Assembly: GCA_021825295.1 (NCBI GenBank)
Contig: JAKAHV010000008.1
Span: 1-64,000 of the forward strand
Source: Nitrospirota bacterium
GTDB lineage: Bacteria; Nitrospirota; Thermodesulfovibrionia; Thermodesulfovibrionales; JdFR-88
DNA: 64,000 bases
Reading direction: 5' to 3'
Shown here: positions 11,827-50,505 of the stretch, piece by piece
Position numbering within the stretch: position 1 is the first letter of the stretch
How the letters are laid out: each line of letters begins with the position of its first letter
Translations under genes and position numbers: made by a program
Notes under the pieces: generated by a model
What the model saw: only the letters and a program-made list of their open reading frames with translations
What the model was told of the DNA's origin: nothing
The model's database searches: none

Positions 11827-13164
11827 TCAGTTTGAATCATGCATTCCGGATGGATGAGTCGGCTGGCTGACCATTATAGGCAGCGATTCCAGCTTCGGGA
11901 TTCCCGCAACCCGTTCAAGCTGGGATTTATTGACGAGAAGATTCAATTTTGTGTTAATCATCTGGTCACGCGCATCAGCAAGCAGGGTTTCCGCCTGGAC
12001 AAGCGAAAGAATATCAGCCTCGCCTATTTTATATTCTCCAAACGCCAGCGAATAATTATGCTCCGCATTATGCAATTGATTCTTCGCTACAGTGAGATCC
12101 TCAATTGACGTTAAATAATTATCATAGGTCTTCTGAAGATCGAGCACAAGTTGCCGTTTTGTTTCGTCCAGTGTAGCTTCGGATGAAGTCGTTGAGATCG
12201 CAGCCGCCTTTTGTCGGAAAAACTTGCCCAGTTCGAAAATATTCCATTTGGCGGACAATCCCACGTATCTGTCTTCAGGGATGAGAACGATGCCGGGCGC
12301 GGCGCCAATCGATTTTACATAAGCGGCATCAGCAGATATTGTTGGCCAGAAGGCGCTTAACTCAAGAGATCTGTCGAACCGTGCAATCTTGACAGTATCT
12401 GCCGCCTGTTTTATTTCCGGCTTTCGGAGGACCGCCTTTCTCAGGCTTTCAATGGCTGGAAGTGTCGGGATAAAAGATAACGCTCCCTCAAGTGAAGGCT
12501 TCGCCTCAAGCGGCATCCCAATCAGAGAGTCCAGGTCAGCAAATGCCTGTCTTAATTCGCCGCGCGCGGCCACGACGTTATATTTCGCCTGTTCCAGCCG
12601 GACTGATGCCTGGAGCATATCAGAGAGTTTTACAATACCAAATTTATACCGTCCTTTTGCAACATCGTAGTCTCTTTGAGCATCGTCAAGCTGTAATTTT
12701 TTTGAATCGAGCGAAGCCTTCCCGGCGAGCACGGAATAAAACGCGACTTTTACATCGTATTCGAGGGCGATAAGCGTTTTCCGAAGGTTTTCCTTGTCGC
12801 TGTCTGAATTCAGAAGCGCAATGTTTCTGTTCGCTTGCCGCTTGCCGCCATCAAAAAGGATGTATGATAAGTCGAACTGATAGACCTGCGCGTTGTAATC
12901 TGGAAATTGATTGTAGTGCCGGTCATAAGACCCTGAAGCATCGAGGCTAGGCAGATATGGCCCAAGAGACGCTGTTGCCAGGGCTTTGGTTGCTCTTGCC
13001 TTCAGCATTGCCGCCCTATATGCAGGTAGTCTTTCCCTGGCCATGTTAATGGCTTCTCCAATGGTCAATGCATTTACCAGGTTAGGTAGTATTAAAAAAA
13101 TAACGCACAAGAGGAGCCAATATCTGCCCATGATCGCTCTCACGCTGAATACAGAAGGTTTCAT
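11827..13164 (-). CDS. TolC-family outer-membrane efflux protein (type I secretion)
   Basis: 445 residues. A signal peptide (YWLLLCVIFLILPNLVNA) precedes two TolC-type repeats starting LTIGEAINMARERLPAYRAA. Long helical segments rich in Ala, Gln and Lys (LQKTYDNYLTSIEDLTVAKNQ) form the periplasmic tunnel. It is the last gene of the minus-strand secretion operon, 26 bases after the HlyD gene, and should be the outer-membrane duct of the exporter. It was named by fold features and context; sequence in this family is diverse. Confidence 0.9.
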   Translation of the reverse strand: MKPSVFSVRAIMGRYWLLLCVIFLILPNLVNALTIGEAINMARERLPAYRAAMLKARATKALATASLGPYLPSLDASGSYDRHYNQFPDYNAQVYQFDLSYILFDGGKRQANRNIALLNSDSDKENLRKTLIALEYDVKVAFYSVLAGKASLDSKKLQLDDAQRDYDVAKGRYKFGIVKLSDMLQASVRLEQAKYNVVAARGELRQAFADLDSLIGMPLEAKPSLEGALSFIPTLPAIESLRKAVLRKPEIKQAADTVKIARFDRSLELSAFWPTISADAAYVKSIGAAPGIVLIPEDRYVGLSAKWNIFELGKFFRQKAAAISTTSSEATLDETKRQLVLDLQKTYDNYLTSIEDLTVAKNQLHNAEHNYSLAFGEYKIGEADILSLVQAETLLADARDQMINTKLNLLVNKSQLERVAGIPKLESLPIMVSQPTHPSGMHDSN

Positions 13165-13190
13165 GCTGACATATTTTTATTTGCGTCTCT

Positions 13191-14564
13191 CTATCTCTCG
13201 GTCAGGCTTTCTTTTTCGTATTTCTTGAACGGGGACAGAAAAAATTCAATAATCCTCCTTTTTCCCGTTTTTATTTCCACAGAGCAAGTCATGCCTGGCT
13301 CCAGAGGGACCAGCTTGCCATGCACAAGCATATGCGTTTTCTCCATGCTAACCTTTATTTTATAGACCAGCCCCTTTTTCTTGTCTTCAAAGGCATCAGG
13401 GCTTACCTGTTTGACCACTCCTTTGACTACTCCATACTTTTGAAAGGAAAAAGTATCCAGTTTGATCTTCGCCTGCTGTCCAGCCTTTACAAAACCAATG
13501 TCCTTATTCTCTACCGTGGCCTCCACAACCAGGGACGTCCCCTTTGGCACTATTGACGCAAGAGTTTGCGCCGTGGTCACGACGCCGCCTATTGTATGGA
13601 CTTTCAGCCCCTGCACGGTGCCTGAAACCGGAGAAACAAGCCTTTCAAGCTTGTACCGCTGCCGAGCTTTTATCATATCATCCTGGTACGTCAATATTTT
13701 ATTTTCGCTATCAACAATATCCCCGAGGATGTCTTTTTCACGACCGCGCTGCAAGGCAACAAGCATCTGTTTCGCCTCAAGCAGACTTTCCTTTGCCCGT
13801 GCAACTTCTTTTTTTTGGGCTTCATACTCTTGTTCGGCCGTAAAAAGCTCCTTTTGCTTCTCCAGATGCTCCATTTTGCTGATGTAATCGGCCTTGTATG
13901 CCGCGTTATAGGCTGATGCCTCCTGCCTCAATATCCAACGGGTTTTCAGGTATTGTTCAAGCGTGGCTTCGGCGCCTTGCAGAGCGTCCTTCCGTTGTTC
14001 GATTACCGCCTGTTGGGCCTCTTCTTTTGCATCGTATTCAGCCTTTTTGGTGTCGATCAGCCGCCGCTCCAGGGCCGGAACTTCTGGCGATATCTCTTTC
14101 CCATCGGGAATTCCTGGAAGATCGCTTTTTCTGCCCGTAAGCTCTTCGATCAGGCGCTGCTTGCCTGCGAGTTGGATCGCAAGGTCTTTGCTTGTGCTTT
14201 CAACGTCGGCTCTGTCCATTGTGGGGTCCATTTCGATTAGAAGCTGCCCTTTTTTTACCTGCTGGCCCTCGTAGATAAAGATGGCCCTGATAACTCCCGT
14301 ATCGAGTGGCTGGATTTCTTTGATCCTGCCGTCCGGGATTATTTTGCCCCTCGCCATGGCGACCTCATCCACCCGCCCGAAATATGCCCAGAGAAATGCT
14401 CCTATCAAAAGGATAAGCATTACCCAGATCAGGATTCTTTTGGCCGGCGACGGCGGAGTTTCCTCAATTTCGAGGGCGGGGGGCAGAAACTCATATTCGA
14501 GATTGTCCTGGGCGTATTTGCGCTTGATATCCTGAAGAAATTTCCTGATGGATGGCCGTTTCAT
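13191..14564 (-). CDS. HlyD-family periplasmic adaptor (type I secretion)
   Basis: 457 residues. One N-terminal membrane helix (ILIWVMLILLIGAFLWAYFG) follows a cytosolic stretch. Then come the half-lipoyl motif VDEVAMARGKIIPDG and EIQPLDTGVIRAIFIYEGQQ, a long coiled coil near residues 150-310, the second half-lipoyl LERLVSPVSGTVQGLKVHTI, and a beta-barrel C-terminus ending in GMTCSVEIKTGKRRIIEFF, the HlyD signature. It bridges the ABC exporter and the TolC-like duct. The ABC gene ends 16 bases upstream. Confidence 0.95.
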   Translation of the reverse strand: MKRPSIRKFLQDIKRKYAQDNLEYEFLPPALEIEETPPSPAKRILIWVMLILLIGAFLWAYFGRVDEVAMARGKIIPDGRIKEIQPLDTGVIRAIFIYEGQQVKKGQLLIEMDPTMDRADVESTSKDLAIQLAGKQRLIEELTGRKSDLPGIPDGKEISPEVPALERRLIDTKKAEYDAKEEAQQAVIEQRKDALQGAEATLEQYLKTRWILRQEASAYNAAYKADYISKMEHLEKQKELFTAEQEYEAQKKEVARAKESLLEAKQMLVALQRGREKDILGDIVDSENKILTYQDDMIKARQRYKLERLVSPVSGTVQGLKVHTIGGVVTTAQTLASIVPKGTSLVVEATVENKDIGFVKAGQQAKIKLDTFSFQKYGVVKGVVKQVSPDAFEDKKKGLVYKIKVSMEKTHMLVHGKLVPLEPGMTCSVEIKTGKRRIIEFFLSPFKKYEKESLTER

Positions 14565-14580
14565 TTACTTTTTACCGGCC

Positions 14581-16791
14581 TCATAATGCTCTTTGCTGCT
14601 GGCTATAAAGGTGATTATACAATCCCGGCCGGGCAAGCAGTTCATCGTGGCTTCCGTATTCCACCACCTGACCACGGTCGATTACGAGGATTTTGTGAGC
14701 GTCTCTCAAGGTCGATAGTCTGTGCGCTATGATAAGAACGGTCCTTCCCTCGCACATGCTTCTTAAATTACGCTGGATGATGCTTTCCGATTCATAATCC
14801 AATGCCGACGTAGCCTCATCGAAGATTAAAAGCCGGGGATTGGTCAGAAGGGCTCTTGCGATGGCGATGCGTTGCCTCTGGCCTCCGGAAAGCGCCGTAC
14901 CCTGTTCACCCACTACCGTATCGTATCCTTCCGGTAATTCCAGGATGAAATCATGGGCCCCGGCCAGCTCCGCCACCCTGACGACCTCGGACATCGGCGC
15001 GGATGGATAATGTATCGCTATATTGTCCCTGACACTCCCGTTAAACAGAAAATTCTCCTGAAGGACAACACCTATTTGCCGCCGCAACCACGCCGGATCG
15101 GCCAAGGCAATATCAACACCGTCTATAAGAATTCTTCCTCCTTCAGGGATATATAGCCTTTGAAGAAGCTTCGCCATGGTGCTCTTGCCGGAGCCGCTTC
15201 TGCCCACTATGCCCAAAACGGTGCCTGCCGGGACCGCAAGCGAAACATTTCTCAGGATTTCCGGGCCGTCCACCCGGTATCTGCACCGTACGCCCTCCAT
15301 CCGGATATGCCCTTTTACCGCGGGCAGCCTGGCCTTTGCCGGGTTCATGGCGGGTTCCGGCATCGCGTTGAAAATGTCACCAAGACGCTTGAGGGAGATG
15401 CCAACCTGCTGAAAATCCTGCCACATCTGTGTGAGTCTCATTACAGGATCGCTCACCCTTCCGGAGAGCATCTGGAAGGCGATAAGCTCACCAACAGTCA
15501 GCTTACCACCGATGACAAGGAGAGCGCCGTACCAGAGAATAACAAGATAGGATATCCTGTTTATCATCTGGCCCAGGGCGCTGCCTATGCCTGATATCTG
15601 GTAAGTCTTGAAGCTTGAAACAATGTATTTTGAGAAAAGCCCCTCCCATTTTTTCTGGGTCTCCGGCTCCAGGGCGAAGGATTTGACCGTCTGTACGCCC
15701 GCGACCGATTCCACCAGATAGGATTGCGCGTCCGCCCCCCGGCTGAACCGTTCGTCAAGATGATGCCGCAGCATGGGCCTGATTATCAGCGACAGGGCCG
15801 CGAAAAAAGGGAGGATAGCCAGCGCCACTAGGGTCAGGGGAACGCTGTAAAAAAACATCACCGCGACAAAAACAAATACAAACATGAGGTCCAGCATGAG
15901 GGTCAAAGGCGAGCCGGTCAAAAAACGGCGAATGGTCTCGAGTTCCCGCACTCTGGCGATCGTGTCACCAACGCGTCTTACTTCAAAGTACCGCAGCGGC
16001 AAGGCAAAAAGATGCCGGAAGAGTCTCGTCCCCAGATGCACATCAATGCGGTTTGTCGTGTGCGTAAAAACATATGTCCTCAGAATATTCAGGGCGGCCT
16101 CAAATAAAGTTATCGTTAAAAGTCCGATGGCAAGCACATCAAGTGTGGTAAGCCCATTATGGACAAGCACCTTGTCTATTACGACCTGGGTAAAAATCGG
16201 CGTGACGAGGGCAAATATCTGCAGCACCAGCGAGGCTATAAGGACATCATATAATGGCTTCCTATATTTCCAAAGAGAAGGCAAAAACCACTTAAGCCCG
16301 AATATCTCCTCTTTTTTTAAAAAGCCGCGCTGTGTAAACAGGACAAGATTGCCTGTCCAGATTTCGGAGAATTCCTCCAGTTTAAGAATGCGTGGCCGTT
16401 GCTCGCCGGGATGCATGACAAGGATTTTGGCCGGATCAGCCTTTGCCAGCACAATATAGGACAGCTTGTCCCGCGCTTCCTGGCCGTCCCAGGCCTTGAT
16501 CTCGGCAATAGCCGGAAGAGGAAGTTTTACCAGTCTCTCAAAAGAAAGATTTGCCGACTTTGTCTTAAAGCCAAGCTCCCTGCCCGCGCGGATGATGTCG
16601 CTTGCGGACATGCCGCCCTCCCCGATTGCAAATGTGTGCTTGATCTGGGCAGGGTCTGCCGCCACGCCGTGAAAACGCGCAATCATTATAAGGCAACTAA
16701 GACCAGTGTCGATCCCGCCGCAAGACCCATGAGCCTCGTTACGAGACTCGTGGTTACTATTTCCCTCTGTTTTATCCGTGCTCACTGCCAT
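14581..16791 (-). CDS. type I secretion ABC exporter with degenerate C39 domain (HlyB-like)
   Basis: 736 residues in the order C39-like domain (about 20-150), six-helix membrane domain (about 165-450), ATPase (about 490-730). The ATPase has Walker A GRSGSGKST, signature LSGGQRQR and Walker B LLIFDEATSALD. In C39 peptidases the catalytic Cys sits in a DCG motif; here the motif reads GIDTGLSCLIMIARFHG, with Thr in its place. So it should bind rather than cleave its cargo, as HlyB does for RTX proteins. This fits a cargo with a C-terminal secretion signal instead of a double-Gly leader. Confidence 0.95.
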   Translation of the reverse strand: MAVSTDKTEGNSNHESRNEAHGSCGGIDTGLSCLIMIARFHGVAADPAQIKHTFAIGEGGMSASDIIRAGRELGFKTKSANLSFERLVKLPLPAIAEIKAWDGQEARDKLSYIVLAKADPAKILVMHPGEQRPRILKLEEFSEIWTGNLVLFTQRGFLKKEEIFGLKWFLPSLWKYRKPLYDVLIASLVLQIFALVTPIFTQVVIDKVLVHNGLTTLDVLAIGLLTITLFEAALNILRTYVFTHTTNRIDVHLGTRLFRHLFALPLRYFEVRRVGDTIARVRELETIRRFLTGSPLTLMLDLMFVFVFVAVMFFYSVPLTLVALAILPFFAALSLIIRPMLRHHLDERFSRGADAQSYLVESVAGVQTVKSFALEPETQKKWEGLFSKYIVSSFKTYQISGIGSALGQMINRISYLVILWYGALLVIGGKLTVGELIAFQMLSGRVSDPVMRLTQMWQDFQQVGISLKRLGDIFNAMPEPAMNPAKARLPAVKGHIRMEGVRCRYRVDGPEILRNVSLAVPAGTVLGIVGRSGSGKSTMAKLLQRLYIPEGGRILIDGVDIALADPAWLRRQIGVVLQENFLFNGSVRDNIAIHYPSAPMSEVVRVAELAGAHDFILELPEGYDTVVGEQGTALSGGQRQRIAIARALLTNPRLLIFDEATSALDYESESIIQRNLRSMCEGRTVLIIAHRLSTLRDAHKILVIDRGQVVEYGSHDELLARPGLYNHLYSQQQRAL

Positions 16792-16801
16792 GTGAATAGT
16801 T

Positions 16802-17638
16802 TTAAATTATGGTGACGTTCCGAATATTAAGTCCCGGTTTTTCCCAGAAGCTGGCGGTGGCATATTTGCCGAACAGATCAGGAGGAATACAGGGTTTTTG
16901 CTCTATGTATTCGACTTTGTTATGTACTTTGTGCAACCCCGGCATCCCTATGCTACTGTCATAATCCGGCTCATCGTAAACGACATTGTCAAAGTCATGG
17001 GCAAATGGCGGTTCTCCCAGTTCAGTATAGAGCCGGTCAAGAGTGTGCCTGGGCTCTTTTGCCAGATGATCGTACGGCACAAGAATCAGCCGTTTAGCCT
17101 CTTTTCCAAACCAGGCCTCACGCAGAGCGCACCAAGCCAGGCCGATCAGGCCTGTATCGAAATTCATCAGCGTTTCAACACGGGAATAGATCGAAGCACC
17201 TGGCTGGAAATTAAATATGCGTGAAAGCTCCAAAGGATTACTGATAAGCATGCGCTCGATGCTGTTGATAATCCAACCGATTCCACGCACACAACAGATA
17301 ATGCGCGCTTGCGGGTATATTTCCCCAATCAATGAGGCTCGTCCGGTCCAGGTGCGGTTGGTGTCGAAGACAACGCCGTCCAGCGGAACATCGGCGTAAT
17401 ACGCATCAAAGATCCCTCGCAAGATAGCGGTTCTCCTAGCGTTGTCAAAGAACGGCTTGAATTCGCCTCCACACATTGGAGAATGAACAGCGCCGCACAA
17501 GGCGGCAACGGGGCTGGTCATGGCAGCGGTAAAACGAGGATTTTGACGCAACAACGCGCACAGAAGGGTTGAACCTGAACGAGGCAGGCCTGAGATTAAA
17601 TGAATTCGTGTGATCATGAGTTGACGGTATTCTGCCAT
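16802..17638 (-). CDS. sulfotransferase (RaxST/tyrosylprotein-sulfotransferase-like)
   Basis: 278 residues. The PAPS phosphosulfate loop SGLPRSGSTLLCALLRQNP is at residues 16-34. RIICCVRGIGWIINSIERM supplies the Arg/Ser pair that binds the 3'-phosphate, and VVFDTNRTWTGR lies between. Such enzymes move sulfate from PAPS to a hydroxyl. The pattern recalls RaxST and other bacterial protein sulfotransferases as I remember them. AAGGAAGGAC precedes the ATG. The gene sits between the presumed cargo gene and the exporter genes, which suggests it modifies the exported protein; that link is inferred. Confidence 0.85.
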   Translation of the reverse strand: MAEYRQLMITRIHLISGLPRSGSTLLCALLRQNPRFTAAMTSPVAALCGAVHSPMCGGEFKPFFDNARRTAILRGIFDAYYADVPLDGVVFDTNRTWTGRASLIGEIYPQARIICCVRGIGWIINSIERMLISNPLELSRIFNFQPGASIYSRVETLMNFDTGLIGLAWCALREAWFGKEAKRLILVPYDHLAKEPRHTLDRLYTELGEPPFAHDFDNVVYDEPDYDSSIGMPGLHKVHNKVEYIEQKPCIPPDLFGKYATASFWEKPGLNIRNVTII

Positions 17639-17721
17639 GTCCTTCCTTACGCCGGAACGCTTTGTTGTAGCATCGAGCCCACTGAAGCGGTCCGGATGCC
17701 TTATGCGTTAATTAACCAATT

Positions 17722-17755
17722 AACCAGCCCACCCCTTGGAAGGAGCGGGCTGGTT
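17722..17755 (-). terminator. intercistronic hairpin between cargo gene and sulfotransferase
   Basis: AACCAGCCC (17722-17730) and GGGCTGGTT (17747-17755) form a perfect 9-bp stem. On the minus strand it is followed by AATTGGTTAATT, a weak U-tract. It probably acts as a partial terminator or RNA stabiliser that makes more cargo than exporter. Confidence 0.5.
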
Positions 17756-17785
17756 CTGATGTTTCAGGAAAGAGGCCCTCTCCTT

Positions 17786-20068
17786 TCAATGATGATTGTT
17801 TACTGCTAGAACCGGAGTTTGCAGGAACGATTCCTGGGGTGCTAGTTCATGTGTTTGACCGGAGGGTCCTGAACCGAAACCAGCCATGGCCTGTATTAAT
17901 TGGTTAAGACCATTCCCAGACACATCCGCTCCCGCCGACTGTCCGGGCTCATAAAGCGACTGAATACCCGCGATGTCCGTCGCATCAAGCGTTTGATTAT
18001 TCGACGTCAATTCATAGCACATTATAGAGTTCGGGTCTGCGTCACAAGCCAGTCCCAAGGCATGGCCGATCTCATGGAGAAGTGTCTGGGACAATGAGGC
18101 ATCAGTCCCGGAATAAACTTGCTGTCCTGTGGAACTGGTGGTCAGTGCATCTTGGGAAGGGTCTTCCAGCCGGACGATTACACCTGGTTCGATCTTTTCC
18201 TCGTAGTCCCGCAAGCTGGTGAAGCCGACAATACCGCTATTGGTGGTATCGAAATCACCCCAGCCAATTCTTATGTCAGATTTCGAAGAGTCCGGGACTT
18301 CCTCGAAAGTGATGCCGGCCGCCGCTCCCCATGAAGCAAACGCCTGCTGCACGGCTGCCTCGTCGCTGCCGTTCATATAACTGCTGAAAGGCGAAGCCGA
18401 GGAGCCAGGATTGTCCGCCAGACTCCATGTAATAATCTTGCTATCCCATTTTGCGCCTTCTAGAACGGCAGAGCCTGCTCCCGGTGCTTGCGGCGCCATT
18501 GATGCCATAGCTTCAGCTTCATGCAGACCGGCCTCTGCGGCATTAGCTGCCGCGAAATCGCCAGTTGCAAAGTCTTGTCGGCTGATTGGTCCGATATTCT
18601 TACCAAGTGCTGCCTTGATAACCGCCTGATTGCCTGCTAAACCATATCCATATCCATATCCGCCATATCCGCCGGAAAAAGAAACGCTATAACCAACAAA
18701 ACTGCTACCGGTATAATCAATATATCCCCCGCTTGATCCAGTATCAAAATTATACCCATCATAGGTGACCGCAATATTTGCACCTGAAATGACATCATTA
18801 GTGCCGATGATATGCAACGTGTCACTCGCATTTGCATATATAGTATCATGGCTGCCGTAGACGTACACAGCGTCACCCGTGCCCAGATTTATGCCATTAC
18901 CGTTGCCGTACACATTGGCCTGGGCATTGTTGTTCACATAAACGCCTGTGCTCTGCCCGTTTGCCGTTGCGCCCCCAAATGCATCCTTGTTGGCGTACAC
19001 CGCGTCGTACGAATTATTGGTGTTGCCGATCATCGCTAAATCATCGGCTCCCGAGTAGATGGTATTGCCCCCGCCAAAGGCCTGCAAACTGTCACCCGTC
19101 CCCAGGTTGACCTGGTCGCCGTTGCCGTTTGCCCAGGCTTGGGAATTATCATCTAAGGTGATTTGCGCACTCGACGCGTTCACGTTATCCGCACTGCCAT
19201 TCGTTCCAGTTATGGTAACCTGCGCGTTGGCGCTTTCGGTAATGCTGTTTCCACCCTCGTTGACGGTCGCCGAGGCGCCGTTCGCAATATTTATGGCAGC
19301 ATTGATCAGGGTCAAGTTTGCACCTGTGCCCGTGACACTGGCGTTTTCTGTGCCATTGGCCGCAGTACTTGTCGTTTCGTCGAACTGAAGATTTCCAGAA
19401 GTAAATGCTTCGATGTTTACAGTCTGCGTCGTCGCATTAATCTGGATCGAATCGGCGGTATTCCCTGGATTATTTTCAGCAACCGTCACCACAGGATTAC
19501 CGTTAATATCGGTCGTTGAAGATACCGTCTGGTTATCCGACGTTTGAGTCATTGTTGTTGGCAAAATGTTACCCCAAGCTGGGGCCCAATGAGGTCCCCT
19601 TAGTCCCAAATCTTGAGGCACAGTAATACCGGCGGCGGTTAAAGCAGTATCAGCGGCGGAATTGGAATTAAGCGTTAACGGCGAATAGTTTAAGTTTTCA
19701 TTTGTGATTTGCTGCTCGGCTTCTTCAATTGCCGCCCATTGCGAGCTAAGATCAGCGCCAGATGCTACAGTTTCTGTTTGAAAACTAGGGTTCACTAAAT
19801 AACCGAGAGCATCACTCACTGTGGTATCTGCAAGCGACCCGGATGTGCATGCCAACGTTCCCCAATCTGTCGAGCTTCCTGATGCGCCTGAAGACAATTG
19901 AGAAAGTTGGCTACTAAGCACAGTCGGCCCATTTGCGGTAGGAGCACAAGTGGCAATAAATCGCTGCCCAGAAGAATTCGTATAAACCAAGGTCTCGTGA
20001 TACCAAGTGGTTCCCGTCCCTGGTATTTGCCCCAACGGCTCGAAGAAAATCTGAATGGATTCGCTCAT
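17786..20068 (-). CDS. large metzincin-like protein, presumed type I secretion cargo
   Basis: 760 residues, Asn/Gly/Thr/Ser-rich, no signal peptide, SD AAAGGAG seven bases from the ATG. Residues about 160-460 are repeats built on VNLGTGDSLQAFGGGNTIYS and GINLGTGDAVYVYGSHDTIY, like RTX or beta-roll cargo. A Gly/Tyr-rich run (SGGYGGYGYGYG) is near residue 470. Residues about 525-710 look like an M10 catalytic domain: HEIGHALGLAC from 665, Met-turn SIMCY, DIAGIQSLYEPG. The third zinc position is Cys675, not His. The tail LNQLIQAMAGFGSGPSGQT resembles C-termini of other type I cargo as I remember them. Proteolytic activity is unproven. Confidence 0.8.
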   Translation of the reverse strand: MSESIQIFFEPLGQIPGTGTTWYHETLVYTNSSGQRFIATCAPTANGPTVLSSQLSQLSSGASGSSTDWGTLACTSGSLADTTVSDALGYLVNPSFQTETVASGADLSSQWAAIEEAEQQITNENLNYSPLTLNSNSAADTALTAAGITVPQDLGLRGPHWAPAWGNILPTTMTQTSDNQTVSSTTDINGNPVVTVAENNPGNTADSIQINATTQTVNIEAFTSGNLQFDETTSTAANGTENASVTGTGANLTLINAAINIANGASATVNEGGNSITESANAQVTITGTNGSADNVNASSAQITLDDNSQAWANGNGDQVNLGTGDSLQAFGGGNTIYSGADDLAMIGNTNNSYDAVYANKDAFGGATANGQSTGVYVNNNAQANVYGNGNGINLGTGDAVYVYGSHDTIYANASDTLHIIGTNDVISGANIAVTYDGYNFDTGSSGGYIDYTGSSFVGYSVSFSGGYGGYGYGYGLAGNQAVIKAALGKNIGPISRQDFATGDFAAANAAEAGLHEAEAMASMAPQAPGAGSAVLEGAKWDSKIITWSLADNPGSSASPFSSYMNGSDEAAVQQAFASWGAAAGITFEEVPDSSKSDIRIGWGDFDTTNSGIVGFTSLRDYEEKIEPGVIVRLEDPSQDALTTSSTGQQVYSGTDASLSQTLLHEIGHALGLACDADPNSIMCYELTSNNQTLDATDIAGIQSLYEPGQSAGADVSGNGLNQLIQAMAGFGSGPSGQTHELAPQESFLQTPVLAVNNHH

Positions 20069-23704: not shown

Positions 23705-25705
23705 CTACCATCTCCTGGTCAGGCTCGCGAAGAAGGCGTGGGCATGGCCGGACGTGTATTCGGGGTTCAGGCTGTTGACCGCGCTGTCAAAGTTGCTGAA
23801 GAAATAACTGAGCCCTATTTCCGTCTTCTCGCGCACGGCCCACCTGGCCTTTACGGAATAGACGGTCTCCTTTATGTCCAGGGTCGAAAAGACGGACAGG
23901 GGAAGCAGGGAGCCGTTTGCCGAAAAATCGTACTGGCTTGCCGGAGAGAACTGGCCGCTGGCGGAGAAGCGGTTCACCGCCGCCGTCAGACCAAGCCTTC
24001 TGACCGGCGAGTAGTTGGCGGAGACCGTGTAGTTATGCGATACGTCGGTGTAGGGCACATTCTGGTCCACCAGCGGCGCGCCCGCGGGGACTGCCGCCGT
24101 GTAAACCAGGTCCTGCCTCACCCTTGAGCGCCAGTAGGCATAGCCGGCCTCAAGCGTTATGTTCCGCCTGACCGGCAGCATGAGATTGCCGGCGAATTTG
24201 TCCCTTCGCACGTCCCTGTTCGTGGCGTTCGTGATGGCGGACGTGGATTCGTCGATTATCTGCAGGTTGTCCCTCGTCTCATGGGAAAGCTCATAACTGG
24301 CGAAGGCCGTGATGCCGCCCAGGAAGCTCCATGTGGCCGACAGGGTGCCGGAGTCGCCGTTGTTGGGCTCGTAGTTGTATGCCGGAGAGCCGTACCATTC
24401 GTGTTTGTATTCCCCCCTGATTTTCAGCGTCCGGACGGGGCGGTAATCCACGTTGAGCGAAGTCTTCGCGCTCCTGGTGGATGCGGGCAGCAGCCCGCCC
24501 AGCCAGTAGGTGTAGTTTTCGCGCCTTTCGTCGCTCCAGACGATCTGGCCGCTTGCCGTCAGATTGCAGGCAATCCGGTATCGCGCTATCCCCGTGACGG
24601 TGTCCGTCACCGAGGAGATGGGAGGCCGGATGGAGTTGATTGCGAAAGCGGGCGGCACCGGCTGGCCGAACTGGTTGTAGAGCCGCGTCAGAAATTCGGT
24701 CGCGCTCGCGTTGTCCTCGGAAAGCTCCTCGTGCCTGTACCTTGCCACCAGCATGAGCGGAGTGACCGGTATCACCCTTACCTCGGCGTTTCCAAAGAAA
24801 TAATCGGCGGCCGCCTGGCTGGTCTCATTCCTCCTTGAGACCTTCGACAGCGTGCCCATGGCATAAATCATCCCGGTATACGATGTGTGGATCCTGAAGG
24901 TGTCCGTATTGCCCTCGAATTCGGGTATCAGGTTATGGATCAGGAGCCCGTCCGTGTAATTGCAGCTGCCATTGCCGCAGCCCATTACGTTATTGTCGGC
25001 TGAAAACCTCTTGAACCCGTGGGAATAATCCATCTCCACCGGGCCGAGGTGGCCGTTCAGCCCCACCCTTATATCGGTCGTGCGCATGTCAACGGGCCTG
25101 TCCTCGGCGACCCTTTCGATATCGCCGGGGCTGGAGAAGGAGCCGGAGCCGCCAAGGAATATCTGCTGGATGTCTCCGGACTGCACCACGTTCATGCCCT
25201 GCAGATAAACATGAAAAGGATATTCGTGCGTCTTGAAGCGCAGGAAGACGCGGTTGATCCCCTCTCTTACCCCATAGTGGACACCGGAGTCGTACTGCCG
25301 CACCCCGAAATCCTGGCCCGGCGGATTGCCGATGAGGGTAATATTGGGCAGGTTATGGTAGAGACTGCTTCCCAGGAACCTGGAGAGGACCGTATCGCTG
25401 TAAGCGTAGCGCAAATCGGCGAAATAGTCCTTCGGATTCAGGACGTCAAGCTCCAGGTGCACACGGTTGGGGAAAGGAAAGGCGATGATCTCGCCTCCCG
25501 CGCCAAGGGAAGCCTCCGGGTAGCCGTAGGGCAGCGCGTAGCTGCCGCCGCTCAGATGGGCGTCAGTGAAACCTCCCCACAGACTGTATTCGGGGGCTAT
25601 CTTCGGGTATTTGTAGACCTGGTTGTCCGTTTCGTCCTGCGCGTAGGCCGCCGCGGCAAGCATAATGAGTATCACCGGCAGGAAAAGGGCTGTCCGCCAC
25701 CTCAC
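23705..25705 (-). CDS. MtrB/PioB-family outer-membrane beta-barrel porin
   Basis: 666 residues from a GTG whose TG overlaps the TGA of the upstream cytochrome; the signal peptide (LFLPVILIMLAAAAYA) then falls at the right place. The mature protein is a run of amphipathic beta strands rich in Tyr, Arg and Ser, with YAYSDTVLSRFLGSSLYHNL and the FKRFSADNNVMG region seen in MtrB-like proteins, and it ends in Arg-Trp. These porins hold a decahaem cytochrome in the outer membrane and make an electron conduit. The order cytochrome-porin with overlapping stop and start fits a porin-cytochrome complex. Confidence 0.88.
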   Translation of the reverse strand: MRWRTALFLPVILIMLAAAAYAQDETDNQVYKYPKIAPEYSLWGGFTDAHLSGGSYALPYGYPEASLGAGGEIIAFPFPNRVHLELDVLNPKDYFADLRYAYSDTVLSRFLGSSLYHNLPNITLIGNPPGQDFGVRQYDSGVHYGVREGINRVFLRFKTHEYPFHVYLQGMNVVQSGDIQQIFLGGSGSFSSPGDIERVAEDRPVDMRTTDIRVGLNGHLGPVEMDYSHGFKRFSADNNVMGCGNGSCNYTDGLLIHNLIPEFEGNTDTFRIHTSYTGMIYAMGTLSKVSRRNETSQAAADYFFGNAEVRVIPVTPLMLVARYRHEELSEDNASATEFLTRLYNQFGQPVPPAFAINSIRPPISSVTDTVTGIARYRIACNLTASGQIVWSDERRENYTYWLGGLLPASTRSAKTSLNVDYRPVRTLKIRGEYKHEWYGSPAYNYEPNNGDSGTLSATWSFLGGITAFASYELSHETRDNLQIIDESTSAITNATNRDVRRDKFAGNLMLPVRRNITLEAGYAYWRSRVRQDLVYTAAVPAGAPLVDQNVPYTDVSHNYTVSANYSPVRRLGLTAAVNRFSASGQFSPASQYDFSANGSLLPLSVFSTLDIKETVYSVKARWAVREKTEIGLSYFFSNFDSAVNSLNPEYTSGHAHAFFASLTRRW

Positions 25706-26832
25706 CGTGTGAACCACCCTTCCCCGGATGCGGGCGGCAGGTCGGAGCCATGTATCTGCGAATGGCAGTCCGTGCACCTGGTATAGAGGGCGGCCCTGCG
25801 CGCCAGAGGATCGGCCGGATTTATCCTGTGCCCTTCATGGCACTGGAGGCAGAGAAAAGGCTGCCTCAGCTTAAGCAGGTCGTTGTTCGGCGAGCCGTGC
25901 TGGTTGTGGCAGATAAGGCAGTTTTCCGTGTTTTCCGCATGCTCGTAAATGAAGGGGCCCTCCTTGTCCGCGTGGCACTGGGTGCAGGTGGCCTTGATAG
26001 TCGGTTTCCTTAAAAGCTTAGGGTTTCCCCCGTGGGGGTCGTGACAGTCGGTGCAGAATATCTTGCCTTCGGGCACCGGATGATGGCTTGGCTGATTGAA
26101 TTCGCTCTTGACGTCCTGGTGGCACCTGAAACACATCGCAGCCGTGTCCCTGGGGCTCACGATGAGGTCCGGCCCGTGGTGGATATTGTGGCAATCCTCG
26201 CAGGCCACGCCGTTTAGGGCATGGGGGCTTGTGTCCCAGGCGTGAAGATTGAAAGTGGCGTTGCCGGTATGGCATTTAAGGCATATCAGGGATTTCGCCG
26301 TCGGAGGCAGGCGCTTTATGTCGATGAGCGTTTTATAGTTGCAGGAGAGGATCTTCCCCTGCGCTTCCGCCTCCTTCACCTTCCGGCGCGTAAGCCCCTT
26401 TATGGCCAGGCTCCCCGGCCCGTGGCAGGACTCGCAGTCCACAATAGGCAGGCCGGATTTGGGCGAGAGCTGGGCGCCCATCGTGCTCGCCTCAAAGTCC
26501 TTCTTTATCTGGTCGTGGTAATGGCAGGCCCTCAGGCAGTTGGCATTGCCCACATAGTCGGCATCGAACCTGCCCACCAGCATCTTCTCATAATCCTTTA
26601 TGGGTATAAGAGGCTTCGAGGTTTTCAGGGTCTCGCAGCCCGACGGCAACAGCAGGGCCGCCAGCGCCAGAAAAACTCCGGGGAGAAGAAACCTGCGAAA
26701 AGCAACACCCCTCCCCTTGTCCGCTGGGAGGTTCCATCCGGATGGATTTTCACTTTCAACGCGGGGAGTTTTTCTATCTTTTATTTTTATTCGCTCGCTT
26801 GCCCCTTTCAGGACAATACGCTCGCTTTGCAT
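25702..26832 (-). CDS. DmsE/MtrA-like decahaem c-type cytochrome lipoprotein
   Basis: 376 residues. Nine CxxCH haem motifs start at residues 133, 184, 211, 234, 260, 283, 305, 328 and 353. A CxxxCH (CLRACH) lies at 99-104 where the first haem of the family belongs, so ten haems are likely. A lipobox LLPSGC places the lipid on Cys66. The ATG follows GGGGGATTA, but the 43 residues before the hydrophobic helix are unusually many and charged, and no other canonical start lies between. It should pass electrons from periplasmic carriers through the adjoining MtrB-like barrel. Confidence 0.88.
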   Translation of the reverse strand: MQSERIVLKGASERIKIKDRKTPRVESENPSGWNLPADKGRGVAFRRFLLPGVFLALAALLLPSGCETLKTSKPLIPIKDYEKMLVGRFDADYVGNANCLRACHYHDQIKKDFEASTMGAQLSPKSGLPIVDCESCHGPGSLAIKGLTRRKVKEAEAQGKILSCNYKTLIDIKRLPPTAKSLICLKCHTGNATFNLHAWDTSPHALNGVACEDCHNIHHGPDLIVSPRDTAAMCFRCHQDVKSEFNQPSHHPVPEGKIFCTDCHDPHGGNPKLLRKPTIKATCTQCHADKEGPFIYEHAENTENCLICHNQHGSPNNDLLKLRQPFLCLQCHEGHRINPADPLARRAALYTRCTDCHSQIHGSDLPPASGEGWFTR

Positions 26833-47405: not shown

Positions 47406-47702
47406 AGCTATGATATTAAATCAGAAGCCGCCTTTAGTCAAAGAAAAAACCGTGGGAGCTGCGCCGGATTTGTGGGGCAGGCGTTGACGCAGACCTCCGG
47501 GAAAAAGAGAGTGCCATGATGCAACCGGCAGGTGATTTTGCCATTTGCCAATGCCTCTTAAAATAACTACAATCTAGATAGAAACCGGCATCCCTTTTCC
47601 GAAGCAAAACCCAAAGAAAAAACTGGCGGGGAACAAAAACCCTGGCGGCGATTTTCGAGCGCTGCCTCAAAAACATCAATTCCGGACCAAAAAGGCGGCT
47701 GC
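47406..47702. other. 297-base divergent intergenic region
   Basis: It separates yicC (minus) from the first OmcS-like gene (plus), so it must hold both promoters. I could not pick a convincing -35/-10 pair. GGCGG four bases before 47703 serves as a weak SD. Confidence 0.5.
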
Positions 47703-49010
47703 ATGAAGATTTTTGCCCTGAAAACAAAAACCGGCCTGCTGCGGGCCTTGCCCCTGCTGGTCATGATATCCGCCGGACTTTGGGCTCCGGGTGCCGCCCT
47801 GGCCTTCCATAACGGGGGGACCGGCGAGTGTGACGGCTGCCACACAACGCACCGTGCGCCGGCCATCATAACCCAGACCGCAACCGAGCATGGCGTCTAT
47901 ATGTTAAAAGGGTCCGATGCGGGTTCGACGTGTCTGAATTGCCATCAGTCGGCCGGCCTCACCGGGCCAAACGGCTGGCACATAAGCACGCCGGAGGCCG
48001 AGATGCCCACCGGCATCCCCCCGAAACAGCTCACTCCCGGAGGCGATTTCGGATGGCTCAAAAAGGACTATACCTGGGGAACCGGAACCGGCATGCAAAC
48101 AAGCCCCGGATACAGGCACGGCCACAACATAGTCGCGGTAGATTACGGGTACAAGTCCAACCCGATTATCATGAGGGCCCCCGGCGGCTCGTATCCGTCC
48201 TCAAACCTTTCATGCGTCAGTTGCCACGACCCCCACGGGACCTTCCGCAGGAACATGGACGGCACGATTACCTCCTCCGGGCCAAAGATTTGCAATTCCG
48301 GCTCGTACGACACAAGCCCCGACCCCACCCCGGACTGCCCCGTCGGGGTCTACCGGCTGCTGGGAGGCATCGGCTACCAGCCCGGGGGCGGTTTTGAGTT
48401 TACCGCCAACCCGCCGGCCGCCGTCGCCCCTTCGGTCTATAACAGGCCGGAGGAAACGACGATGACACGCGTCGCCTACGGCTCCGGAATGTCTGAATGG
48501 TGCGAAAATTGCCATACCATGAATTCCAACAGCGGCCGCCACGGCCACCCGGCAGGCAGCGACGCCAGGCTGGGGACCCTGGCAAGAAACTACAATATGT
48601 ACATAAAAAGCGGAGACATTACCGGCACCAGCACCTCCTCCTACTTAAGCCTTGTGCCGTTCGAGGAAGGGACCTCCGACTACAGGGTCCTGAAATCCCA
48701 CGCGAAAAATGACGACTCCTACCTGCAGGGGCCGGATGAAAACGCCAACGTCATGTGCCTCACCTGCCACAGGGCCCACGCATCCGGCTGGGATTTCGGC
48801 CTGAGGTTCAACGCGAACGACCAGGATTTCATTACGACGTCAAACCAGGCAGCCATCCCGCTTTGGCCGGGCACCGACACAACCAGCAACGCCGACTGGG
48901 CGATGGGGAAGACGTCCGAGGAGACAAGAAGGGCCTATTACAACATCCCCGCAAGAAGGTTCTCCCCCTACCAGCGGACCCTCTGCAACAAATGCCACAT
49001 CCGGGACTGA
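47703..49010 (+). CDS. OmcS-like hexahaem cytochrome, copy 1
   Basis: 435 residues. Signal peptide to about residue 34 (AALA-FHNGG). Six CxxCH motifs start at 43, 77, 171, 267, 352 and 428. From memory it follows Geobacter OmcS (432 residues, six haems) block by block: FHNGGTGECDGCH, LTPGGDFGW, GHNIVAVDY, SCHDPHG, VYRLLGGIGYQP, VAPSVYNR, MSEWCENCH, SLVPFEEGT, TCHRAHASGWD, YQRTLCNKCH. OmcS polymerises into extracellular haem filaments, so this is a likely nanowire subunit or surface cytochrome. The extra His residues after haem sites fit bis-His ligation. Confidence 0.9.
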   Translation: MKIFALKTKTGLLRALPLLVMISAGLWAPGAALAFHNGGTGECDGCHTTHRAPAIITQTATEHGVYMLKGSDAGSTCLNCHQSAGLTGPNGWHISTPEAEMPTGIPPKQLTPGGDFGWLKKDYTWGTGTGMQTSPGYRHGHNIVAVDYGYKSNPIIMRAPGGSYPSSNLSCVSCHDPHGTFRRNMDGTITSSGPKICNSGSYDTSPDPTPDCPVGVYRLLGGIGYQPGGGFEFTANPPAAVAPSVYNRPEETTMTRVAYGSGMSEWCENCHTMNSNSGRHGHPAGSDARLGTLARNYNMYIKSGDITGTSTSSYLSLVPFEEGTSDYRVLKSHAKNDDSYLQGPDENANVMCLTCHRAHASGWDFGLRFNANDQDFITTSNQAAIPLWPGTDTTSNADWAMGKTSEETRRAYYNIPARRFSPYQRTLCNKCHIRD

Positions 49011-49092
49011 AACCCGGCGCTTGCCAAATTTTTAGTTTTTTTGGTAATTCCACCTTTACATTTCCAAAGGCCCCAATTTAAAATATAGCGGC

Positions 49093-50505
49093 ATGAGAAA
49101 GATGGTGGTTGCCTTGGCCCTTGTGGCGGTCGTCCTCGCCGGTGTCGATGCCAGGGGATGGGCATTCCATGACGGCGGCGTCGGCGCATGCGACGGATGC
49201 CACACTATGCACAATTCTCAGGGCAGCCAGCCGGTCCAGCTCAATAACGGGGCTGTCCCTTCCGCCACGGTCGGTCAGGCGGCCAATCAATATCTTCTAA
49301 AGGGCACGGACCCAAGTTCCACCTGCCTTAACTGCCATGAAGAGACGGGAGACGCTGCCGCCAGCGGCCAGTTCGTAAGCACCGCCCCGGCGGACATGCC
49401 TAATGGCTATCCTCCGATAGAGCTTACCCCTGGAGGGGATTTCGGGTGGCTAAAGAAAAGCTATGCGTGGGTGTACTCGGGCACCCAGTACACGGACCAG
49501 GGCCAAACCCACGGGCACAATATAATCGCGGCAGACTACAATTACGTGCAGGACACCGTAAACAACACGGCCCCCGGCGGCACATATCCCGCCTCCGCCC
49601 TTACCTGCATAAGCTGCCACGATCCTCACGGGAAATACAGGCGCAACGCGAACGGAAGCATTACAAAGGGCGGGGCCCCCATAATAGCGTCCGGCTCCTA
49701 CAATACAAGCCCTACCCCCGCGACCGGCCAGGCAGTCGGCGTTTACCGGCTCCTGGGAGGCGTGGGTTACCAGCCCGGCTATCTCCAGGGCAGCTACGCC
49801 TTTACTTACGCGTCGCCACCTGCTGTCGCTCCATCGGTTTACAACAGGTCCGAGGCAAGCACTCCGACTCGCGTGGCCTACGGCAGCGACGGCTCCAGCA
49901 ATGGAATGGGCTTCTGGTGCAAAAACTGCCATCCGAATATACACACCTATAACGGCCCGCCGGCGCCCTTGAACGTCTATAATCAAACGTACAGTTTCCC
50001 GCAAACTCACCCGATTGAACAACAGTTGAGCATGGTAACAAGCAGTTACAACGCATATGTGGAATCGGGGGTCTACACGGGCACTCAGAGCACATCCTAC
50101 TGGTCCATTGTGCCCTATGAGGAAAACACCACAAATTACGCGACCCTGGCATCCCATGCAAACAATAACGGCAGTTACCTGCAAGGCCCATCGACCAGTG
50201 ACTACGTCTCCTGCATGACCTGCCACCGGGCGCACGCCTCAGGTTGGGACTATATGCTTCGCTTCAACTATCTTGGCATAAATGACGGCCTGAACGGATG
50301 GACCCAGATCATAGACGACAACAGCGCCGGGGCCGTATGGCCGGACCCCGGCCTGGACCCTTACAAGGCCATGGGGCGCACCGTAACGGAAACGACGCAG
50401 GCATATTACGGCAGGCCGGCAAGCACCTATGCGGCCGTCCAGTATGTTTTATGCAATAAATGTCACTATGCCGGCATGGGAGGCGGCGGGGGCAGCGGCC
50501 GGTAA
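49093..50505 (+). CDS. OmcS-like hexahaem cytochrome, copy 2
   Basis: 470 residues. Signal peptide (VVALALVAVVLAGVDARGWA) then FHDGGVGACDGCHTMHNSQG. Six CxxCH motifs: CDGCH, CLNCH, CISCH, CKNCH, CMTCH, CNKCH. The same blocks as copy 1 are present (LTPGGDFGWL, GHNIIAADYNY, CHDPHGKYRR, VYRLLGGVGYQPG, TCHRAHASGWDYM), with longer loops between haems 3-5 and a Gly-rich tail. It is 82 bases after copy 1 and probably co-transcribed. The stop is only four bases from the convergent bioD stop, leaving no room for a separate terminator. Confidence 0.9.
   Translation: MRKMVVALALVAVVLAGVDARGWAFHDGGVGACDGCHTMHNSQGSQPVQLNNGAVPSATVGQAANQYLLKGTDPSSTCLNCHEETGDAAASGQFVSTAPADMPNGYPPIELTPGGDFGWLKKSYAWVYSGTQYTDQGQTHGHNIIAADYNYVQDTVNNTAPGGTYPASALTCISCHDPHGKYRRNANGSITKGGAPIIASGSYNTSPTPATGQAVGVYRLLGGVGYQPGYLQGSYAFTYASPPAVAPSVYNRSEASTPTRVAYGSDGSSNGMGFWCKNCHPNIHTYNGPPAPLNVYNQTYSFPQTHPIEQQLSMVTSSYNAYVESGVYTGTQSTSYWSIVPYEENTTNYATLASHANNNGSYLQGPSTSDYVSCMTCHRAHASGWDYMLRFNYLGINDGLNGWTQIIDDNSAGAVWPDPGLDPYKAMGRTVTETTQAYYGRPASTYAAVQYVLCNKCHYAGMGGGGGSGR

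Follow-up and report, generated by a model that had tools for sequence, protein, structure and literature searches.

Tandem OmcS-family hexahaem cytochrome genes of a Nitrospirota bacterium as candidates for conducting filaments

General features of the locus

The stretch of DNA analysed here (the window; 64,000 nucleotides) belongs to contig C39 of a Nitrospirota genome of 2.89 Mb that is 91% complete. Two cytochrome genes, designated A and B, lie on the same strand with a gap of 82 bp between a divergent yicC and a convergent bioD (Table 1). The positions given for the two open reading frames in the initial annotation were exact, each product contains six CxxCH motifs as had been claimed, and every OmcS landmark block quoted there was found in both proteins (FHN/DGG, GGDFGW, CHDPHG, YRLLGG(I/V)GYQP, CHRAHASGWD, and LCNKCH). 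The probable signal sequences end just before Phe-His, the mature N-terminus of OmcS, a pattern consistent with Sec export. Both genes are intact and under purifying selection, with dN/dS values of ~0.25 (A) and ~0.20 (B) in the comparison with a member of the same genus (genus-mate).

The position of the promoter-like site upstream of A is partly conserved in relatives (TTGACA...) according to the alignment. GEMM elements are frequent on Geobacter cytochrome genes. Control by a known riboswitch was rejected, as Rfam searches at the gathering score gave no match in the window or in loci L009, L010, and L012 and nothing relevant near the A-B pair. No intrinsic terminator was found in the region 3' of B.

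Table 1. Positions of the features identified in the window
Feature	Position	Strand	Remarks
Sigma-70-like promoter match upstream of A	47545..47573	+	TTGCCA-17-TACAAT; weak (3 sites found vs 1.6 expected)
Gene A, OmcS-type hexahaem cytochrome	47703..49010	+	435 aa; C-terminus ...CNKCHIRD
Sec signal peptide of A, probable	47703..47804	+	...GAALA / FHNGG; sequence pattern aligned to mature OmcS residue 1
His50 of A, equivalent to OmcS mature His16 (inter-subunit ligand)	47850..47852	+	alignments
Canonical three-residue C-terminus IRD of A, after haem-6 CxxCH	48999..49007	+	
Gene B, OmcS-type hexahaem cytochrome	49093..50505	+	470 aa; insert after haem 4, Gly-rich C-terminal tail
Sec signal peptide of B, probable	49093..49164	+	...ARGWA / FHDGG; sequence pattern aligned to mature OmcS
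His40 of B, equivalent to OmcS mature His16 (inter-subunit ligand)	49210..49212	+	alignments
Non-canonical C-terminal tail of B, haem-6 end	50467..50502	+	YAGMGGGGGSGR; pLDDT < 50
MtrA/DmsE-like periplasmic cytochrome, candidate conduit haem protein	25702..26832	-	nine CxxCH and one CxxxCH
Probable outer-membrane barrel partner	23705..25777	-	overlaps end of MtrA-like gene

Homology to OmcS and predicted fold

The sole relative of A and B detected in the PDB by phmmer was OmcS (6ef8/6nef), which was matched over the whole mature length with E values of 3.2e-134 (A) and 9.4e-117 (B). Identities to mature OmcS were 56 and 53%, respectively, and were still 53 and 50% after the haem motifs and ligands had been masked. 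Global alignment scores were 1128 for A and 1033 for B, whereas the maxima of 200 shuffles were 83 and 67. Because of these shuffle scores and masked identities, the likeness to OmcS is placed far above chance and above what shared CxxCH motifs would give. In Foldseek searches with the AF2 monomer models (pLDDT 81.5 for A and 78.7 for B), the single significant match of each protein was 6ef8_A, with TM scores of 0.84/0.90 for A and 0.78/0.89 for B (0.90 and 0.89 being normalised to OmcS). Membership of A and B in the OmcS family, as judged from sequence and predicted fold, is solid, in support of the OmcS-like identity first assigned to both genes.

A and B share with OmcS of Geobacter sulfurreducens (GSU2504; PDB 6EF8/6NEF) the order of the six CxxCH motifs, the 12 histidine ligands including His16 (H16), the mature N-terminus FH.GG, and the predicted fold, and A also shares the CNKCHxxD ending. 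They differ from it in sequence (53-56% identity), in their Nitrospirota host, in their position outside an osc locus, and in that the filament is one that we infer; in addition, OmcS has neither the insert after haem 4 nor the Gly-rich tail of B.

Haem ligands and the inter-subunit histidine

We take the inter-subunit ligand of OmcS to be mature His16 and the opposite ligand to be His332 of haem 5, the two residues to which Wang et al. reportedly assigned these roles in 2019. The OmcS numbering fits, as His332 is the histidine of the fifth CxxCH. OmcS has 12 histidine ligands, one of which, on haem 505, is supplied by the neighbouring subunit (PMC6584659). All 12 are kept in A and in B. Loss of the inter-subunit histidine had been named initially as evidence that would speak against filaments; in the alignment with OmcS, this residue is present as His50 of A and His40 of B, and it is likewise kept in the six other paralogues encoded in the genome. 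When these eight proteins and OmcS were aligned, the invariant histidines were the six of the CxxCH motifs and six others, among them the one at the H16 position.

In a set of 171 distinct members of the family, drawn from several phyla, 11 of the ligands are kept in 170-171 proteins and H16 is absent in 21, a number that under-samples such members because one of the two patterns used to scan contigs included H16. These losses correspond to about four changes on the family tree. The retention of H16 in A and B is informative since it is the sole ligand that has been dropped repeatedly in the family. In the monomer model of A, much of the core has a pLDDT above 90, and the N-terminal arm bearing H16 contains low-pLDDT stretches (residues 36-41, 51-56, and 59-66), as expected if the arm packs on a neighbouring subunit. 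The presence of His16 may thus offer a cheap rule for sorting likely wire-formers from non-wire paralogues, a distinction called unresolved in PMC12977616.

The H16-less proteins (L037 4631-5860 and 20 others) keep the remaining ligands. The one in L037, from another Nitrospirota genome, is encoded near gmk, yicC, bioD, and fabG, which are gene neighbours of A. Two Geobacteraceae encode OmcS paralogues that lack His16 and contain a seventh CxxCH near the N-terminus (L026 535-1764 and L045 425-1666).

Origin of the pair and comparison with omcS-omcT

In the genus-mate, the pair occurs at the equivalent position, with 75% (A) and 84% (B) identity. In four other family members, the A orthologue occurs alone at the yicC/bioD place and relatives of B are located elsewhere in the genome. 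The A orthologue adjoins bioD in five other family genomes and occupies the yicC-bioD interval wherever the contig extends far enough. As the initial annotation had it, A and B are two divergent copies in a row (54% identity), and a recent tandem duplication was rejected on the basis of this identity and the unlinked presence of both clades in family-mates.

A tandem arrangement of omcS and omcT is already known from Geobacter. Like A-B, the omcS-omcT tandem of Geobacterales consists of adjacent same-strand OmcS-family genes, and in Geobacterales relatives its upstream product has the CHxxD end and its downstream product a variant end, as in A-B. In the tree, however, the A and B clades are sisters (97/91) separate from Geobacterales OmcS and OmcT, a grouping that does not support orthology of the two genes to omcS and omcT. 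An assignment of B as an OmcT orthologue is disfavoured because B groups with A and the OmcT clade lies apart; a forced B+OmcT clade gave a p-AU of 0.076 and was thus not rejected. A and B are therefore paralogues of old standing, a pair comparable to omcS-omcT but without support from the tree for orthology to it. The two tandems also differ in context: omcS-omcT of Geobacterales lies directly before the osc block, whereas the A-B pair is on contig C39 and the osc-type block of this genome is on contig C17.

OmcS paralogues and an osc-type block elsewhere in the genome

The OmcS family is rare in Nitrospirota, being present in 12 of 296 sampled genomes. The genome studied here encodes eight members, namely A, B, one on contig C10, and five on contig C17, these five having a clade of their own, separate from A and B. 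This copy number is not a unique record, since one Geobacterales genome also has eight and the genus-mate yields eight matches, some of them at contig ends and perhaps split.

The five C17 paralogues are clustered at positions 78487-89445 of C17 (covered by L009 and L010), before an osc-type block, with a gene for an NHL-repeat protein between two of them. The block encodes a beta-propeller protein, a 772-aa putative barrel, an LpoB-like lipoprotein, a 382-aa protein, a peptidyl-prolyl isomerase (PPIase), and cytochromes with 26 and 15 haems. It matches the loci of Geobacterales relatives of G. sulfurreducens in every gene and in gene order; the C17 version differs in that the genes before it are five OmcS paralogues from a separate clade, with the NHL protein gene among them, whereas the Geobacterales block directly follows omcS-omcT. 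Judging from this gene content and order, the C17 block is complete and corresponds to the osc assembly cluster, so that osc-type machinery is encoded in the genome. The individual names OscD-H presumably apply to C17 genes, an assignment that draws on literature summaries. The osc cluster itself, a companion of omcS, has been described as a nanowire-assembly cluster (Shen et al. 2025, as cited in PMC13194489 and PMC12977616).

Genes for a narGHJI-type nitrate reductase and a cytochrome b6-like protein are located ~10 kb before the OmcS/osc cluster (C17 60001-68244, i.e. L009 1-8244). In a family-mate (L166; G003, C37 9500-20500), a B-type OmcS paralogue adjoins the osc locus, as do similar multi-membrane proteins resembling glycosyltransferases. 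Glycosylation of OmcS filaments has been reported.

OmcS has already been reported in Thermodesulfovibrionia from DeMMO metagenomes (PMC8478452), and OmcS-like cytochromes in syntrophic sulfate reducers (PMC10553843). Like A and B, these cytochromes occur outside Geobacter and have an inferred role in extracellular electron transfer. Those reports made gene-level homology calls, whereas the present analysis of A and B covers ligands, fold, copy number, and the assembly locus. The eight paralogues and the osc-like locus would amount to a well-equipped OmcS-type nanowire system in a genus of the Nitrospirota, far removed from Geobacter.

C-terminal ends in tandem pairs

B ends in CHYAGMGGGGGSGR and lacks the conserved CHxxD end, i.e. 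an Asp exactly three residues past the last CxxCH, which OmcS shares with 119 of the 159 family members that are complete. The changed end follows haem 6 (haem 506 of OmcS), and the low pLDDT of the tail suggests that it is disordered. In 40 tandem pairs, the upstream product was canonical and the downstream one variant in 20 (most of which are Geobacterales OmcT of one clade), the reverse applied in 4, and both were canonical in 16. The variant end has ~5 independent origins, four with a downstream and one with an upstream deviant. A rule that the downstream gene deviates is not claimed as statistically proven, the raw counts of 20 versus 4 pairs being reduced to ~4 versus 1 independent origins. 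Nevertheless, the variant tails of B and OmcT, both downstream in tandem pairs, are a hint of division of labour, and the asymmetry is regarded as a lead rather than a result. Since canonical and variant haem-6 ends are found together repeatedly, what OmcT-type partners do becomes accessible to testing.

Possible functions of A and B

A and B are good candidates for a known kind of filament that conducts electrons, and we consider it moderately probable that these OmcS-family, probably exported hexahaem cytochromes build an OmcS-like filament with inter-subunit haem ligation. Once loaded with haem in the periplasm, a subunit would use its N-terminal arm to supply the H16-equivalent histidine to haem 5 of the following subunit, resulting in a stacked-haem filament. 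Folding and export may proceed via the osc-type machinery of C17 (PPIase, channel-like proteins, and beta-propeller), which would have to act in trans because the pair is not in the osc locus. Periplasmic carriers could supply the electrons, as could a porin-cytochrome conduit, e.g. the MtrA-like module of the window. A is the better wire candidate, and B probably forms a second, related filament or is a modified subunit, since its C-terminal end at haem 6 is changed.

Family membership is no proof of polymerisation: among the four homologues of G. sulfurreducens, OmcS alone is known to polymerise, and OmcT, OmcJ, and GSU2501 are not known as wires (PMC12977616). A and B might instead be surface or extracellular cytochromes that remain monomers or small oligomers and act as relays or terminal reductases, as may hold for OmcT and OmcJ. 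Besides the single proven filament among these four homologues, the existence of H16-less members that keep the other ligands, and hence the probable occurrence of non-wire members, favours such a role; the position of the A-B pair outside the osc locus also counts against filaments, and there is dispute about whether OmcS filaments act as physiological conduits (PMC11077965). However, H16 is retained in A and B, in contrast to the 21 members that are likely not wires, and their genome contains an osc-type assembly block; we regard the monomeric or small-oligomer role as rather unlikely.

Even if filaments are formed, the two proteins may not be equivalent. A could be the wire subunit and B, through its remodelled haem-6 end, could cap, anchor, or branch the filament or link it to the cell-surface conduit; this lineage would then have two-component wires, and the S/T arrangement would have evolved more than once. 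Haem 506 of OmcS adjoins the narrow subunit interface (PMC6584659), the retention of H16 in B leaves one end of its interface intact, and the deviant is encoded by the downstream gene in 20 of the 24 mixed-end tandem pairs, including those of Geobacterales OmcT and B, in a family where the CHxxD end is canonical. The trend is, however, not significant after correction for relatedness, the B orthologues of family-mates are not adjacent to A, and the AU test does not firmly reject a single origin for the variant ends of B and OmcT (p-AU 0.076). Such a division of labour, with two-component wires and a repeated origin of the S/T arrangement, is accordingly rated as quite improbable; if it were true, proteins of the OmcT type would generally belong to filament ends or junctions.

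Candidate electron conduit in the window

The MtrA-like protein scored above the cut-off of TIGR03508 (DmsE family) and matched PDB 6r2q_A with an E value of 2.5e-40. We take 6R2Q to be the MtrCAB entry; the PDB file names its chain A otherwise than MtrA. The putative barrel partner had no match in Pfam or the PDB and resembled the GSU2204-family model NF041027 below the cut-off (E 8.8e-17). The MtrB-type conduit proposed for this genome in the initial annotation is therefore upheld as to the MtrA-like decahaem cytochrome, which has a probable barrel partner, but for that partner "MtrB-type" is a weaker assignment than was stated there. A porin-cytochrome module in the window is plausible from these sequence matches. 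As regards an extracellular MtrC, no multihaem protein (at least two CxxCH) other than A, B, and the MtrA-like protein was found in the window. A type I secretion set (TolC, HlyD, and HlyB with a C39-like domain) is encoded on the minus strand at 11827-20065 of the window, beside genes for a sulfotransferase and a matrixin-type protease.
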